34,959 bases of DNA, taken from NCBI GenBank assembly GCA_017962165.1, contig JAGCVW010000009.1, positions 1-34,959 on the forward strand, given 5' to 3'. Below the pieces are notes generated by a model, which made no database searches, was not told where the DNA came from, and saw only the letters and a list, made by a program, of their open reading frames with translations. This DNA comes from Bacteroidales bacterium. GTDB lineage: Bacteria > Bacteroidota > Bacteroidia > Bacteroidales > UBA932. Below, one piece after another: positions 1-6,388 of this stretch. The position numbers were made by a program, and so were the translations under genes. Every line of letters starts with the position of its first letter. Position 1 is the first letter of the stretch.

Positions 1-1355
1 GCTTCGCCGAAGACGGTCAGCGAGCCGAACCGGCCGGTCGCCAGCGCGCCCTCCAGCATCTCAGGATGGTCCTCCTGATACACTGCCACCGGCACTGAGG
101 CCTTGTACAAAGACTTGGGCAGGTGGAGCGCGGCCGAAACGCCAGTCGCGGCATCCTCGTAGCAGAGGGCTAAAACCAGTTTCCGGGCAGGATCGGAGCC
201 CCATTTTTCAAGCATCCCGCGGACGAGTTCCGACGAGAGGTGACTGTCTATGAACTCCCACTCCACGTCGAGGAAATCTCCGTAGCCGTTTTTGGGCACA
301 TAGCCGGTGCGGCCGACAGGTGATATATAGGTATAGTGCGAAAGGTCGAACAGACTCTGATGGTTGGCTACATAGTTGTCCATCTTCTCCTGCATGCCGG
401 TATCGACAAAGGAGATAACGGTCCGCCCGCCTTTGGGGAAATGGCAGATCTGCGCGGCGACGCTCGCGAAGGAGCGCCCTATGCGTCCGAAACCGGCTAT
501 TACGATATGCAGCGACTCTCCCTCGCCGGGCACGGGCAGGAAGTCCGTATCGACCAGCAACTGCTCGGCAAGATAGTCGCCGGTATTGACCGTCTCGACC
601 TGAAGGCGCGAACCGTCTGTCCCGGGGAGGTAATTGAACACGTCCATGCTCGAATGCATTTCCAGGGTCACGTAGCAGGGGACAGCAGGGCCGTCGGAGC
701 CGCAAATACCGGACAGCAGCCGGACGGTTCCCATGCTCACGGCGTCGTGGGCCTGCTCGCCGTCTTCACCAATCAGGTATATGCATGAGGCCGCTGCAGG
801 GCAGGCGCTGCGAAGGTCGTCTTCATTGCCCCTCTCGCCGCGGTACCAGATTATACGCCTGCAGAAGCGTGCATCGTCGAGGGCGGTCTCCACTGCGTCG
901 CGCAGCTCTTCCACGTCCGAAGAGGTCATCACGACTATGTCGCGTCCGCCGAATTCGCTGCGCATGGCCTTGAGCATGTCGACCAGCCTGCGTCCGCCGC
1001 CAAGGATCAGGACATGTCCCTTCACGCGGTAGCGCCTTTCGCCCTTGCGGTACTTCTCGGAGATGTTGTCGAACACGTTGGAGAAGGCCGACACGGTCAG
1101 GGCGTTCAGCACAAGGATACCGCCGAAGGCGATTACGATGCTGAAGATATCGAGCGCGAGCTGGCTGCCGGACTTCGCTTCAAGCGGGAAACCGCCCGGA
1201 TCGAGGTACAGGTTCAGTATCTCCGTCCAGCCCAGCGCCCAGAAGCCTCCCAGAAGCACCAGCACCAGGAATAGCGCCAGCGCGATGCCGGCCAGCCATG
1301 CAAGTTGTTTGCCCTCTCCCTCGGAGAGTATGCGGTCAATTCTGCGTTTCAGCAT
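1..1355 (-). CDS. CASTOR/POLLUX-like ion channel with TrkA-N domains (3' end cut off)
   Basis: About 451 residues are visible; the C-terminus lies beyond the window edge. Two hydrophobic helices occur near residues 18-40 and 68-92, separated by a short loop containing a DPG motif. A Rossmann-type motif (GHVLILGGG) follows near residue 116 and a second (IVIAGFGRIGRS) near residue 256. Two TM helices followed by tandem TrkA-N/RCK-like domains is the layout of CASTOR/POLLUX-type channels, whose plant members are cation channels in nuclear calcium signalling. The inner-membrane location and gating by a bound nucleotide or ion are inferred. The ATG at 1355 lies inside the end of the upstream DUF4062 gene (20-base overlap), so the two are probably translated together. 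A generic TrkA-N transporter subunit is the alternative. Confidence 0.75.
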   Translation of the reverse strand, partial: MLKRRIDRILSEGEGKQLAWLAGIALALFLVLVLLGGFWALGWTEILNLYLDPGGFPLEAKSGSQLALDIFSIVIAFGGILVLNALTVSAFSNVFDNISEKYRKGERRYRVKGHVLILGGGRRLVDMLKAMRSEFGGRDIVVMTSSDVEELRDAVETALDDARFCRRIIWYRGERGNEDDLRSACPAAASCIYLIGEDGEQAHDAVSMGTVRLLSGICGSDGPAVPCYVTLEMHSSMDVFNYLPGTDGSRLQVETVNTGDYLAEQLLVDTDFLPVPGEGESLHIVIAGFGRIGRSFASVAAQICHFPKGGRTVISFVDTGMQEKMDNYVANHQSLFDLSHYTYISPVGRTGYVPKNGYGDFLDVEWEFIDSHLSSELVRGMLEKWGSDPARKLVLALCYEDAATGVSAALHLPKSLYKASVPVAVYQEDHPEMLEGALATGRFGSLTVFGE

Positions 1356-4300
1356 ATGCGTACTGTATGAGTTTATCTATTTCTTCAAGCCCGGTGTCTC
1401 CGCGGAATTTCCGGACAAGTTCCACACGCTCGGCATTGTCCGTGAACATCTTGCGGAAATTCTTAACCCACTCGTTGTCGGGATCTATTTCTTTCAGAAG
1501 GTTGCCGCCCTCGACCGCGGCGCAATAAGCCAGGTCGGCGACGCGCGCAAGGGGCTCCTGGGTCAATCCGAACTGCCATACTATGCCCTTTGATTTCATG
1601 AGTTCCCATGTGGAAAGGGTAAGGAGCATGTGGAATGACAGGTAAGTCTGGAGAGCCTCCGCCCAGCTGAAGAAGTTTTCGGCCCGGTAGAACAGCTGCA
1701 TCGAAGGGATGAAGCGGATGAATTCTGCCAGTGCGCGCTCATGCTGCCCCTCGGTCATCAGGACGGACAGGGCGTTGATCATCACATTGTAAGACTTGAA
1801 GCGGGCTTCGAAAGCCTCCTGGCCGGGCTCAAGGTCGTCGACGATGGCGTAGTACTGGTCGAAGAAACTGTCGAGCAGTTCCATGCGTTTGTTCTTGCTG
1901 ACCAGCGATGATTTTGTGCCGGCCTGGGCGACGAGAGGGAAGAGCGCCGTGAAGCGCTCCTTTGCGCTCGTCGCGCCCCCGCCGGCACCCCCGCGGAGGG
2001 CCTGCGCCTTATCTATCATGCCTTTCTTCTGATACAGCATGATAAGCAGGCTTGAGGCCATCGATATGAGTTGCTTCGATCCGGGGAAATCCAGCGAGGC
2101 GCTTCTGCGGGCTGCCTCCATGGCCTTTTCAAGATGGGGGATGGAATCCCTCTGCCCTGCAAGAATACTGCAGCAGGTGAAGGCGTCGGCGCCGGACAGG
2201 CTCTCGATATTGACATCCTCCAGCCAGGCGCTCATACGTGCGTGCAGCCTTTCGCGCTCCTCCTTAAGGTCGGCAAGAGCAGTCAGAACGTCCATTATTA
2301 ACTGCAGACGCTGCTCTACAGGCAGGGCCTTGCAGTAGTTTTCGAAATCGTCAGAGTCGAGGTAACCCTCGCGCAGCAGCTGGCGTATCTGCGGTCCATG
2401 GAAACGGAGCATGTCGCTCATCTGCTGGCCATGGACATAGTCGCCCCCGACCATGTATGGTGCGAAATGCGAAGGCTCGCAGCCTCCAAGGGCGAAATAC
2501 AGGCCCATGGTCTCACGCAGCGAATCATGCGGGTCGAGCGTAAGGATGTACTCTGAAATGTGCTTCTGGCGCTCGCCGAGACCGTCTTCGGGGCGGGTGA
2601 TATATTTGGCCCTCCAGAGGTGGCGGGCATGGTCCTCATAAAAGAAGTCGTGCAGGAAGTTCATCGCGCGGTAGAACTGAACCATGTCCCAGTCCCCGCC
2701 GGCGAAGTGGGCCACGTCGCTTTCACGAAGGCCGCCCGGCGCCGCCGCAATAGTCCAGATTGCCTGGCGCATGTTCTCTCCCAGCGCGAGGTTCTTCACT
2801 ATCTGGTTGACCATGAAGGTCATGATATCGTAGGTTGCGTCCGGCATCTCCTCCCAGATGTCTTCGAGATAGCCGTTGATGGCGTCGATCTGGCTGCCCT
2901 TCCTGCCGCGGATTTCGCGGAAGTCTTCCTGAGTGAGCGACTCGAAGATGCGGAAGATGCTATGGACCTTGAGGGGCGAGAGAGTCTTCTTCTTCGAAGT
3001 CGCGGCCTTGATCATCTGCTTCTTGATCTTCCCGGGAAGTTCGAGAAAGAAGGTCTGCTCATAGTTTACTATAAGCTCGGTGGCGGCGTCTTCGTCAGCC
3101 TCCACTCCAAGCATCAGTTTTCTCGAGAGGTAAGGATAGGCTTCGAGGACTTTTTCGCGGGCTTCGCTCTCGTCCTGGAGGTTGATCATGACATTGACAT
3201 CGTCCTTGACATGGTCGAGCCATGGCATGTAAAGGTCCTTGGGAGAAGTAGTCTCCAGGGCCTCCACGTCGTCCATATAAATATAGATGTAGTCGTCTTC
3301 GGCGACCTCCTTGACCAGCTCTTCGAACAGGTCGAAGAGCTCCGGCTCCGGCATTTTGCCGAGCATCAGCTCGTCTTCTGGCAGGTCTTCACGGCCGACT
3401 CGCTCGGCCAGTTCGTGGATCCAGCGGGCAAGGACAGGGCGCATGGACGAGCTGTACTCAGACAGGCCGAACACGGCCAGAAGGCGGATGACATCCGTAT
3501 CTTCGTCCCACTGCGCATAATCCTGCGCCATGTGGGTACTGGCGCCGTAGCCCTGGACATACCATACGGCGACATCGGACGAATCGTCCTCCTCTTCCTC
3601 TTCCACGTCTTCCTCCTCTTCTTCGTCGTCATCATACACATCCAACTCTATCGATCCGGGCAGCAGCCGCAGCAGCGTGGATTCTTCGAGTTCCTTTTCC
3701 CGGGCCCACCATGTGGCCGTTCCCTGCTCGTCTTCAAGGGCCGTCTCGGCCTCTATCTGACGGGCGAGCTGCTCGGTAACCATCTTCTCGAATTCGTCGG
3801 AGGTGAAGTGACCGTCCTTCCAGTCGAGATGGTAAGGCGTGCAGCGGTCGTCTTCGCCGCCGCGCTCGCCGAAGAGAGCATGGACCTTTGCCTTCAGGGC
3901 TTCCAGACGCTTGATGTTATCCGGATCCGAGTCGCAGAAGGTGGACTTAAGGTCTTCGGGTATGCCGTCGTAGGATGAGTCGTCGCGCAGGAAGAAAAGG
4001 ACATGGGACGAGTCGAAGCTGCCCTGGGAGAGGGCGCCGTAGACTATCTCCATTTCCGTCACGGAGCAGCCGGCGGTGTCGGCGAGGATCTGACGCTCCT
4101 CGTCGGATAGGCCGGCCATGAATTCCCTCCAGCGCTCGACGGGCGGCACCCAGCCGTAGCGGCGGCCTATGAGACCGATGAAGAACGGGCGCGCGCTGTC
4201 GATGCAACTTGTACAGACGGACAGCACCTTGCGCTCGCTCTCCGCCTCGCTCATATTGGAGGTATTGACGCCAAGGCGAAGGTCTATCGCCTGAAGCTCC

Positions 4301-4440
4301 ACCCTGCGGTCGCGGAAGCGCCTGTTCAGGGCGGGAATCACTTTGAACTTGATAACATCCCTCTCGAAGTCCATATCCTTGAAGGTAGACGACAGGAAAA
4401 TGTTGTATCGGCGCCATGCGCCTGCGCTCTGATTACTCAT
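1336..4440 (-). CDS. DUF4062 protein with degenerate STAND/NACHT-like NTPase core
   Basis: 1034 residues. Residues 11-100 (NIFLSSTFKDMDFERDVI, then RLGV and IGLIGRRYGW) match the DUF4062 domain found at the N-terminus of NPHP3/TEP1/NWD-type STAND proteins. A strongly acidic linker lies at about 269-288. The following segment resembles the family NTPase, but the P-loop position (about 295-303, VQGYGASTH) lacks the GK[ST] lysine. A Walker B-like strand ending in DD (384-391) remains. The rest is long helical sequence, possibly TPR-like. DUF4062 proteins are generally considered sensors or scaffolds; here ATP binding is probably weak or lost. It is first in a minus-strand operon with the CASTOR-like channel and lies head to head with the RyR-domain membrane protein. 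No clear -7 box was found upstream of its start. Confidence 0.8.
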   Translation of the reverse strand: MSNQSAGAWRRYNIFLSSTFKDMDFERDVIKFKVIPALNRRFRDRRVELQAIDLRLGVNTSNMSEAESERKVLSVCTSCIDSARPFFIGLIGRRYGWVPPVERWREFMAGLSDEERQILADTAGCSVTEMEIVYGALSQGSFDSSHVLFFLRDDSSYDGIPEDLKSTFCDSDPDNIKRLEALKAKVHALFGERGGEDDRCTPYHLDWKDGHFTSDEFEKMVTEQLARQIEAETALEDEQGTATWWAREKELEESTLLRLLPGSIELDVYDDDEEEEEDVEEEEEDDSSDVAVWYVQGYGASTHMAQDYAQWDEDTDVIRLLAVFGLSEYSSSMRPVLARWIHELAERVGREDLPEDELMLGKMPEPELFDLFEELVKEVAEDDYIYIYMDDVEALETTSPKDLYMPWLDHVKDDVNVMINLQDESEAREKVLEAYPYLSRKLMLGVEADEDAATELIVNYEQTFFLELPGKIKKQMIKAATSKKKTLSPLKVHSIFRIFESLTQEDFREIRGRKGSQIDAINGYLEDIWEEMPDATYDIMTFMVNQIVKNLALGENMRQAIWTIAAAPGGLRESDVAHFAGGDWDMVQFYRAMNFLHDFFYEDHARHLWRAKYITRPEDGLGERQKHISEYILTLDPHDSLRETMGLYFALGGCEPSHFAPYMVGGDYVHGQQMSDMLRFHGPQIRQLLREGYLDSDDFENYCKALPVEQRLQLIMDVLTALADLKEERERLHARMSAWLEDVNIESLSGADAFTCCSILAGQRDSIPHLEKAMEAARRSASLDFPGSKQLISMASSLLIMLYQKKGMIDKAQALRGGAGGGATSAKERFTALFPLVAQAGTKSSLVSKNKRMELLDSFFDQYYAIVDDLEPGQEAFEARFKSYNVMINALSVLMTEGQHERALAEFIRFIPSMQLFYRAENFFSWAEALQTYLSFHMLLTLSTWELMKSKGIVWQFGLTQEPLARVADLAYCAAVEGGNLLKEIDPDNEWVKNFRKMFTDNAERVELVRKFRGDTGLEEIDKLIQYAYAETQN

Positions 4441-4492
4441 ACTTCGAATGTGGTTTATCGGTCTAAGATAAGAAATATATGTTAAGAAACAC

Positions 4493-4500
4493 TATCTTTG
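4493..4500 (+). promoter_or_regulatory. Bacteroidota -7 box abutting the start codon
   Basis: TATCTTTG fits the Bacteroidota TAnnTTTG consensus and ends only 4 bases before the ATG at 4505, so transcription would begin at or next to the start codon. No convincing -33 TTTG was found at the usual spacing. Confidence 0.6.
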
Positions 4501-4504
4501 ATAT

Positions 4505-6388
4505 ATGAACTATACGGCTTTACAACTCCTGGTGGCTCTGGCCGCCCTCATCTATTTTGTAGTTACCCTCATAATCGTAAGGCGCAAGCCAGGCCTTTTG
4601 TGGCTTTGCGCAGCACTTGTGGCTCTCGGCGGAATCACCCTGTACTGGCAGGCATATTCGAGCGTCCAGCCGTTCATCCCGCATATTGTGATGAGCATCC
4701 TGACGGGTCTGGACCTGTTCCTGTTCCGCGCGTACACTATAGGTATGGTGTCGAACTTCTTCTTCGGAGAAGGCAATATCGGGCATCTTATCATTCTGTA
4801 CGGTTTGATGCTCTGCGCAGTGTGGACGACCTCCCTGGCCGCAATCCACGTCTTCGCGCGCAAGCTCGAGAGCCGTATATGGCTGTGGTACAAGACCATA
4901 GGCCGTTCTTCTTCGCCGGTCCACCTCATCGTGGGCGTGAACCCGCGCAGCATCAGCCTGGCCCGCAGCCTCAAGGGCAAGGGGCACGTCGTTGTTCTGG
5001 ACGACGCGGCGCCTGTCGCCGGGCCACGGGGGAGGATGGACTTCTTCGGAGTTTTGAAGGGCATCCGCGTCGAGTCGCCCCTGGTGGGCCGCCTTCGCCG
5101 CGAAGCCCCATGGGCCGCCGTTCTCAAAGGCACGCTCGCGCTACGCCGACTCGACCGCTGGCTCAGGCTCGAGACCACTTCCGTCTATCTGCTTTCCGAA
5201 GACTATTCGGCCAACATTGCATCTGCGTTGAGACTCGACCGCAGGGGAGTCGCTTCGGTGTGGTTTGTGGCGAACGAAGATGAACTGACGCTTCCTATTG
5301 ATATTACTCATAAGAGATTGCATCTTATTGATCCTTCGGGGCTGGCGATTTCCAGTCTGAAGAGGGAAGAAGAGTTGTATCCAGTCCGCTGCGTAGATGT
5401 GGCCCGAGATGCTGAGGGACATCGTCTTGGATATGTCAATGGCGGATTCGATTCGGTAGTTGTTGGTTCGGAAGAATTTGCGGCCGGCGTGCATGGATTC
5501 CTGCAGGAATGGGCCGCCTTTGTCGGAAAGGATAAGAAACAGGTTCCGCTTGTGATAGATGTTCTGGAAGACATCCCCGCCGAACGCTTTGGGAGCCTCA
5601 ACTGGGTCGGCGTCTGTTTCGACGACGACGAAACCACCATGCGAAAGGCGCTGGATATCGCAAAGCAACACTTTATGTCAGAGATCTCTCCACTCGCTAC
5701 GCTCGGGCGAGATGACAATTCAACTGTCATTCCGAGCGAAGCCGAAGGCGGAGTCGAGAAATCTCCATTCCTTATCGCCGCACGCTTAGACCGTCCGGAG
5801 GTGTTCGCCGACACCCTGCGCTTCTCCAAAGAGAATTACGGCGTGGAGATAGTTCCTTTCGGGCAATTAGATAAAATTTGGACTTACGACAGTATCACCG
5901 GAGGCGACACAGCCCGTTTTGCCCGTATCTTCTACGACGGTTACAGGGAGTCTGCCGGAGGCGGTCTTGAATGGGATGAAAGAAATGCGAAGATTCTCGA
6001 ATCCGACCACTCCGATTTGTGGAATGCGATGGAACTGCGGCGTAAACTCTCGCAGGACTACTCTGATTACTTTCACCGCAGGGTGAAGACTTATCTATGT
6101 GATTTGTTCCAGCCTGAATATGATGGTGTGTGGAAGGATATTCCCGTTAAGTTCGAAGGAAAGCATTACACCGGGGCCGACCCTGCCGTCGGCGCCGTCC
6201 TGGAGTACCTCTCGATCGGAGAGCATCTCCGATGGGAGGCCTCCCACCGCGCCGCCGGCTACCGCCCCGGCCCTAAAAAAGAAGAAGATCGCATGACCCA
6301 TACGGACCTCGTTCCTTACGACGCACTCTCCGGCGTCGCTCAGCACTACGACTGGATCGTCGTTCGCACTTCCCTCCGCTTAAAATAG
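4505..6388 (+). CDS. Membrane protein with Rossmann-like domains and C-terminal RyR domain
   Basis: 627 residues. About four hydrophobic helices occupy residues 4-117. They are followed by a TrkA-N-like stretch near 137-165 (HLIVGVNPRSISLARSLKGK) and more alpha/beta sequence to about 390. The last about 65 residues match the RyR domain: a conserved helix, then GYRPGPKKEEDRMTHTDLVP and a terminal helix. In ryanodine receptors RyR repeats are ligand- or protein-contact modules; bacterial versions occur in predicted nucleotide- and ion-signalling proteins. The four-TM plus Rossmann plus RyR order suggests a gated membrane channel or sensor working with the divergent DUF4062/CASTOR-like pair. Residues about 393-421 are encoded by a dispersed palindromic repeat. 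The start is placed at 4505 because the membrane segment begins there and the -7 box lies just upstream. Confidence 0.75.
   Translation: MNYTALQLLVALAALIYFVVTLIIVRRKPGLLWLCAALVALGGITLYWQAYSSVQPFIPHIVMSILTGLDLFLFRAYTIGMVSNFFFGEGNIGHLIILYGLMLCAVWTTSLAAIHVFARKLESRIWLWYKTIGRSSSPVHLIVGVNPRSISLARSLKGKGHVVVLDDAAPVAGPRGRMDFFGVLKGIRVESPLVGRLRREAPWAAVLKGTLALRRLDRWLRLETTSVYLLSEDYSANIASALRLDRRGVASVWFVANEDELTLPIDITHKRLHLIDPSGLAISSLKREEELYPVRCVDVARDAEGHRLGYVNGGFDSVVVGSEEFAAGVHGFLQEWAAFVGKDKKQVPLVIDVLEDIPAERFGSLNWVGVCFDDDETTMRKALDIAKQHFMSEISPLATLGRDDNSTVIPSEAEGGVEKSPFLIAARLDRPEVFADTLRFSKENYGVEIVPFGQLDKIWTYDSITGGDTARFARIFYDGYRESAGGGLEWDERNAKILESDHSDLWNAMELRRKLSQDYSDYFHRRVKTYLCDLFQPEYDGVWKDIPVKFEGKHYTGADPAVGAVLEYLSIGEHLRWEASHRAAGYRPGPKKEEDRMTHTDLVPYDALSGVAQHYDWIVVRTSLRLK
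5681..5765 (+). repeat. Palindromic dispersed element, copy A (in frame inside a gene)
   Basis: This 85-base segment begins GAGATCTCTC and ends GAGAAATCTC. It carries inner arms (GCGAGATGACA and TGTCATTCCGAGC) that pair around a short centre. About 80 percent of positions match copy B at 10935-11016. It is read without a stop as roughly residues 393-421 of the RyR-domain protein. Confidence 0.8.

Follow-up and report, generated by a model that had tools for sequence, protein, structure and literature searches.

Contig JAGCVW010000009.1 of the Bacteroidales bacterium assembly GCA_017962165.1 (lineage UBA932) was analysed over its full length of 34,959 nucleotides, hereafter the window, with attention to three genes in its first 6,388 bases. 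These encode a protein with a DUF4062 domain, a membrane protein related to the plant CASTOR and DMI1 channels, and a second membrane protein with a tail resembling the ryanodine receptor (RyR) domain. The window makes up the whole of contig C30 in a draft genome (G000) of 1.24 Mb and 69 % completeness. The following features were distinguished, with NADase denoting NAD+ hydrolase:

3..1355, minus strand: CASTOR/DMI1-like membrane protein, including an RCK-type Rossmann part and represented by its 5'-terminal 451 codons
1191..1205, minus strand: LDPGG at residues 51-55, the predicted pore filter, corresponding in position to AD265S(A)GNHA of plant CASTOR
1336..4440, minus strand: DUF4062 (predicted TIR-like NADase) protein, 1034 aa long, whose STAND-like region is degenerate
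3535..3546, minus strand: GAST, residues 299-302, at the Walker A GK[ST] place
4048..4050, minus strand: Glu131 codon; in the alignment with human TEP1, by hand count, this residue pairs with the catalytic Glu1008
4441..4504, plus strand: divergent intergenic region of 64 bases, equal in length in the sister genome G006
4505..6388, plus strand: membrane protein of 627 aa with four hydrophobic helices, a Rossmann-like middle and an RyR-like tail
6182..6385, plus strand: RyR-like tail with H574, W577, H599 and D616 (spacing 3/22/17)

The open reading frame (ORF) calls agree with the gene layout given in a preliminary description of this DNA, with the CASTOR-like and DUF4062 ORFs overlapping by 20 bases, the start of the RyR protein gene lying 64 bases from that of the 1034-residue DUF4062 protein in divergent orientation, and four hydrophobic helices in the RyR protein. 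Because the window is a whole contig, the CASTOR-like gene is truncated by the contig end at base 1-3. The end of another contig of this genome, C8, carries a matching CASTOR tail with an RyR-like domain (G000:C8:12491-12835) and after it a DUF1963 gene (Pfam, 6.9e-23), and in the sister genome G006 all three genes are complete, with a CASTOR protein of 608 aa and a DUF1963 gene after it. The preliminary description had named co-occurrence of the three genes in many genomes as support for a system; the exact trio is rare, with only the window genome and G006 carrying it among the 61 genomes searched.

The DUF4062 domain scores 37.3 bits against a Pfam cut-off of 24.7, and no Pfam or NCBIfam domain lies above cut-off in the 1034-residue protein after it. 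A PDB sequence search aligned this protein with the TIR-like NADase domain of human TEP1 (PDB 11gz) at 7.2e-22, for which the catalytic E1008 and the residues R908, R954 and R976 have been named (PMC13174449). When TEP1 is numbered with a chain offset of 893, at which all three arginine positions land on Arg (hand count), R976 corresponds to R94 of the window protein, where it is kept, and the R908 and R954 positions are occupied by Lys. The catalytic Glu is retained in 7/7 DUF4062 proteins compared. By contrast, the Walker A pattern (GxxxxGK[ST]) is not a constant feature, with the P-loop Lys absent in 4/7 of these proteins (those of G000, G006, G008 and one of G060) and present in 3/7, and the candidate role of a working STAND ATPase was rejected on the loss of the P-loop. 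Since DUF4062 has been published as a TIR-like NADase, hydrolysing NAD+ to ADP-ribose (ADPR) and in some cases acting in phage defence (PMC13174449), the window protein is probably a signal-making enzyme rather than an ATP-driven switch.

Pfam analysis of the CASTOR-like ORF yielded sub-threshold matches only (Slo-like_RCK, 14.3 against 24) and no TrkA_N match. The CASTOR assignment is upheld by a profile of eight CASTOR-like proteins, the best PDB matches of which are plant DMI1 (1.6e-6) and CASTOR (1.1e-5). A DPG[NG] motif occurs between two predicted helices in many members of the family, and in 25 homologues with letters at the filter position Asp is found in 20, Gly in 19 and Asn in 11. 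In plant CASTOR, the D265N substitution in the filter AD265S(A)GNHA is reported to be dead (PMC6697748).

Comparison with canonical RyR domains using hhalign gave probabilities of 96.6 for the CASTOR tails and 98.2 for the tails of the other membrane protein family of the window, and the CASTOR protein of G212 exceeds the Pfam RyR cut-off (30.5 against 27.4 bits). The residues H574, W577, H599 and D616 of the window tail share their 3/22/17 spacing with H75, W78, H100 and D117 of the phage protein RyDEP, the correspondence being read from motif and spacing and not from an alignment with RyDEP. These four RyDEP residues hold the ligand; the protein binds 2'/3' cyclic ADP-ribose (2'/3'cADPR) and cleaves it by a His-Asp dyad, and its crystal contains linear ADPR (PMC13232231). 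The corresponding residues are kept in 25/26, 26/26, 26/26 and 26/26 of the CASTOR tails and in 14/15 tails of the other membrane family (the fifteenth being truncated by a contig end). Among 28 soluble RyR proteins the counts are 28, 28, 19 and 28. Only 6/81 columns of the CASTOR tails are at least 95 % identical (E, H, R, W, H and D), and four of these six are ligand residues. This supports the assignment of RyR-like domains with predicted ligand residues to the ends of both membrane protein families of the locus, and the four-helix protein, to which the domain had previously been ascribed, is not its sole bearer.

The neighbourhoods of 28 CASTOR loci in 27 genomes were surveyed (22 strong matches, E<=1.2e-59, among 393 genomes of the order, and five from the search of 61 genomes). 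An RyR tail was read in 26/28 of them, that of the window genome on contig C8, the other two being G401, where the ORF stops before the tail, and the second locus of G281, which lay outside the loci examined. Genes with a Pfam TIR or DUF4062 domain occur within 10 kb of 15/28 RyR-CASTOR loci, against 0.64 expected from each genome's own count of such genes with rounded genome sizes, or near 14/27 when the index locus is dropped, and the positive loci are distributed over 8/13 families. The DUF4062 variant found in the window is the rarer one (5/28 loci), and a Pfam RyR match lies within 5 kb of 11/28 CASTOR loci (0.10 expected). As a control, none of nineteen tail-less CASTOR-like places (pore and first RCK part only) has a TIR, DUF4062 or RyR match in the surrounding 278,688 bases, these stretches having a lower average length, being searched by means of profiles built here instead of those of Pfam, and including one or two (L116) that may be more distant RCK channels. 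Fisher's test of the tailed loci, with the index locus dropped, against the tail-less ones gave 8.4e-5, or 8e-4 when collapsed by family; eight further weak CASTOR places in seven genomes were excluded from both groups. In the genomes surveyed the association is recurrent and lies far above the chance level. Coincidence of the three genes was rejected on this linkage above expectation and on the purifying selection acting on all three (dN/dS, the ratio of nonsynonymous to synonymous divergence, of 0.09-0.13 against G006), while a simple K+ uptake system was rejected as the linkage is too specific (15/28 against 0/19 tail-less).

The same association is apparent from the RyR genes. Among the matches listed, 31/50 RyR places are canonical (E<1e-17), with 27 of these falling within the loci examined, some of which are ended by contig ends. 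Within 6 kb of 25/27 canonical RyR genes lies a gene for an RCK/RyR membrane protein (20 cases) or for a TIR protein (11 cases), and two further canonical RyR genes outside the 27 have a TIR gene nearby by position. Compact gene runs include membrane protein-RyR-TIR+Sel1 (G393), RyR-membrane protein-TIR (G055) and RyR, then an RyR-membrane protein, then CASTOR (G178), while in G021 DUF4062 and CASTOR genes occur with a stand-alone RyR gene in place of the RyR membrane protein. TIR_2 and ThsB_TIR domains were matched in related loci, and all 22 TIR domains at the loci examined retain Glu as the residue in the catalytic position (by eye on the alignment). The conserved unit is a TIR or DUF4062 gene with RyR-tailed membrane proteins and often a stand-alone RyR gene.

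Some of these loci contain additional genes. The RyR-CASTOR-DUF4062 locus of G021 (L036:3204-15022) also encodes a TIR-hexapeptide protein, a PrsW protease and an ADP-ribosylglycohydrolase. In L060, L052, L074, L077, L088 and L046, proteins of 328-380 aa have a canonical RyR domain as their C-terminal part and come after a gene of 187-220 aa, two such upstream products having no Pfam match; TIR genes are near in some of these loci and M48 peptidase genes are next in L060 and L088.

From what can be read in the sequence, namely the domains, the catalytic Glu, the ligand residues, the filter Asp and the linkage, we propose the enzymatic activity of the window protein, the identity of a messenger, the gating, the ion and a role in defence as follows. 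With confidence a little better than even, the locus is taken to be a module similar to Thoeris: an NADase of the TIR type would make an ADPR-type messenger that is bound by RyR pockets on RCK-type channels. On an upstream trigger, the DUF4062 protein would cleave NAD+ and release ADPR or a cyclic or derived form, for which the RyR pocket in the tail of each membrane protein would be the binding site. The CASTOR-like protein, at least, is predicted to have a pore of two helices and an RCK-type gating ring, and the ligand would open this pore, with the ion flux leading to growth stop or phage limitation. Other Bacteroidales have a true TIR protein instead of DUF4062, and beside the membrane protein there is often a stand-alone RyR protein. 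The earlier proposal that a sensor drives ligand-gated ion flux, perhaps in defence or envelope stress, is thus retained as regards a link between ligand-gated ion flux and a TIR-type protein, given the recurrent linkage, and altered as regards the STAND-like sensor, which is probably an enzyme. Defence is favoured over envelope stress because of the TIR partners.

A number of observations weigh against this Thoeris-like interpretation. No TIR or DUF4062 gene is found within 10 kb of 13/28 RyR-CASTOR loci, and two canonical RyR genes lack partners (G376:C1 and G142:C1). The RyR domain of the 627-residue window protein scores 19.3 bits, under the Pfam cut-off of 27.4, so that its earlier assignment stands on hhalign and the ligand residues and not on the Pfam threshold, and the CASTOR tail on contig C8 has no Pfam RyR match at E<=0.01. 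H100 is replaced in 9/28 soluble RyR proteins, and the filter Asp is absent in 5/25 CASTOR proteins. The flanking genes in the window are metabolic (ornithine carbamoyltransferase and arginine-deiminase-like, by Pfam), and none of the three window proteins matches a PADLOC model. TEP1 is reported to have yielded linear ADPR only, and the DUF4062 of Swarozyc works without a channel (PMC13174449); plain ADPR from DUF4062 could nevertheless be the ligand, since the RyDEP crystal holds the linear form. The structure prediction suggested for the membrane proteins was of limited use. The window RyR protein, folded without an alignment, gave a poor model (predicted local distance difference test, pLDDT, of 37) that was not used, and the model of a Barnesiella CASTOR (L070), whose alignment had the window piece as its second sequence, was also poor (pLDDT 44). 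A PDB search with the latter model returned three matches at E<=0.001, all LjCASTOR, with TM-scores of 0.21-0.26 by query length, which lends mild support to the CASTOR identity.

Alternatively, depletion of NAD+ might itself be the effect, with DUF4062 acting alone and the RyR tails forming a brake that binds or cleaves ADPR products, in which case the membrane proteins would be regulators or transporters rather than ligand-opened channels. Swarozyc provides the precedent of a single working DUF4062 protein (PMC13174449), and both residues of the dyad by which RyDEP cleaves 2'/3'cADPR (PMC13232231) are kept in the tails. However, fusion of RyR to pore and RCK proteins, and not to enzymes, would be expected of receptors, and TIR neighbours are lacking at the tail-less CASTOR-like channels of the control, and this explanation is considered unlikely. 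A further alternative, judged to be quite unlikely, is a circuit for ion or envelope stress instead of phage defence, perhaps controlled by phosphorylation, with kinase, FHA, PP2C, AAA and M48/TerB proteins as the true partners and an NAD-derived ligand reporting on energy or redox state. Genes for a Ser/Thr kinase, a triple-AAA protein, an M48-TerB protein and a DUF1963 protein occur beside the CASTOR tail on contig C8 (L069 3224-12494), triple-AAA, FHA and PP2C genes directly precede DUF4062-CASTOR-DUF1963 in G008, an AAA gene lies between DUF4062 and CASTOR in G247, and M48 peptidases are also encoded at RyR loci without DUF4062 (L060, L076, L081 and L088). These partners are known from a Pfam scan of part of the neighbours, without a background count, however, and the spread of TIR or DUF4062 over 8/13 families speaks against the stress circuit. 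Moreover, the kinase and AAA proteins encoded on C8 are themselves similar to PADLOC models of defence systems (mad6, 2.9e-30; IetA, 2.2e-20) and hence provide no argument against defence. Least probable, and considered very unlikely, are ordinary cation uptake or leak genes lying near TIR-type genes by chance, with an RyR tail that senses a housekeeping nucleotide. The RCK fold commonly binds nucleotides or ions, which would suit such genes, but the linkage lies far over the per-genome expectation and none is seen for the tail-less class.

The Thoeris-like interpretation can be extended, as a tentative reading of rather low probability, to a bacterial counterpart of the calcium axis between cADPR and the ryanodine receptor. 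An ADPR messenger made by an immune NADase would here open a CASTOR-type cation channel, perhaps for Ca2+, via the RyR pocket, which with its RyDEP-type His-Asp dyad might in addition degrade this messenger and so shut the channel. The RyR Repeat12 of animals would then derive from a prokaryotic immune receptor.

In Thoeris, the TIR and its receptor are encoded in one operon, and the type II effectors (TM-macro) perturb membranes (PMC12847820). The window locus is similar in that an NADase gene lies beside a gene for a product with a predicted pocket for ADPR-type molecules. The Thoeris effectors named in PMC12847820, however, are SIR2, TM-macro and caspase-like proteins, no match to which was found with Pfam or PADLOC in the window membrane proteins, whereas the receptor here would be an RyR domain on an RCK-type channel, and the enzyme is a DUF4062 protein without a PADLOC match rather than a ThsB-type TIR. 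Swarozyc shares the DUF4062 TIR-like domain with its catalytic Glu, but KpSwz is described as a single protein with an HTH (helix-turn-helix)/winged auxiliary domain that senses the phage portal (PMC13174449), and by this description differs from the 1034-residue window protein, with its degenerate STAND-like region, in a multigene locus with two RyR-tailed membrane proteins. The phage protein RyDEP and the animal RyR Repeat12 domain (PF02026) are also close, the four ligand residues having the spacing of RyDEP, yet RyDEP is a soluble phage counter-defence protein, while the domain here forms a divergent tail of bacterial membrane proteins. The plant CASTOR/POLLUX/DMI1 channels likewise have pore helices ahead of an RCK-type ring, and their filter Asp has a candidate counterpart in most of the bacterial homologues. 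Plant CASTOR is a Ca2+-regulated Ca2+ channel for which the passages of PMC6697748 consulted mention no RyR tail; the bacterial family has DPG[NG] at the predicted filter in many members, and the RyR tail.

The NADase role of DUF4062 and the binding of cADPR by RyR domains are described in preprints of May 2026 (PMC13174449 and PMC13232231). Literature searches, incomplete for one broad query, returned no description of RyR-tailed bacterial channels or of a TIR-RyR-channel operon; the parts are known, and the combination of NADase and RyR-tailed channel is not found in print by these searches. None of the three window proteins has an NCBIfam match. A 2015 survey of nucleotide-centric systems may have predicted part of the module. 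On the sequence evidence, the control of bacterial ion channels by NAD-derived messengers is a possibility. It is an old dispute whether the RyR protein itself is the target of cADPR, and if the proposal is true, a small bacterial module of TIR-type NADase and RyR-tailed channel would make this question testable with purified parts. It would also give Thoeris-like immunity an effector that is an ion channel, and help to explain the phage-borne RyR proteins that bind or cut cADPR.

Among 395 sampled genomes of the phylum, G644 was the sole one to be matched also over the tail part; beyond the window's own, no match in this sample passed E 1e-24.5, the best being 6.7e-25. Single-protein queries, which detect close relatives only, found nothing related to the CASTOR and DUF4062 proteins in viral contigs, while 209/50,697 phage records match a bacterial RyR (tblastn, E<=1e-3). 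An unannotated scaffold filed as phage encodes an RyR protein without a TIR or CASTOR match over the 9.2 kb read. Plasmid records contain one weak CASTOR match and eight RyR matches, two loci of which were examined. On a Priestia aryabhattai plasmid (L117, NZ_CP128553.1) the RyR gene adjoins a cyclase-domain gene, with Pycsar-effector-like and TIR genes near, and because of this locus the TIR-RyR link may reach Bacillota. The second, an Acinetobacter plasmid locus, has no TIR, cyclase or Pycsar-effector-like surroundings.

Several minor observations concern the RyR and CASTOR genes. Beside those of G182 and G212 are encoded proteins of SLOG-like appearance (L089:5517-6164 and L065:10648-12501), recognised by eye from a GV.GHR start and without a Pfam match. 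The window stretch 4420-6388, which comprises the RyR gene and the divergent promoter region, shows against G006 a synonymous divergence (dS) of 0.18 and identity at 108/111 bases, while the other genes compared range from 0.68 to 2.5. As it is far closer to G006 than these genes, recent exchange of this stretch between species is suggested. A dispersed repeat of palindrome type lies in frame within the RyR gene (5684-5768, limits by eye), with its core GTCATTCCGAGCGAAG at 5726-5741. This core occurs at seven places in the window genome (at most one mismatch, with the copy in the RyR gene counted), against one for the reversed control. Translated pieces of the repeat reappear inside other long ORFs of G006, and in-frame indels at the repeat separate the window species from that of G006.

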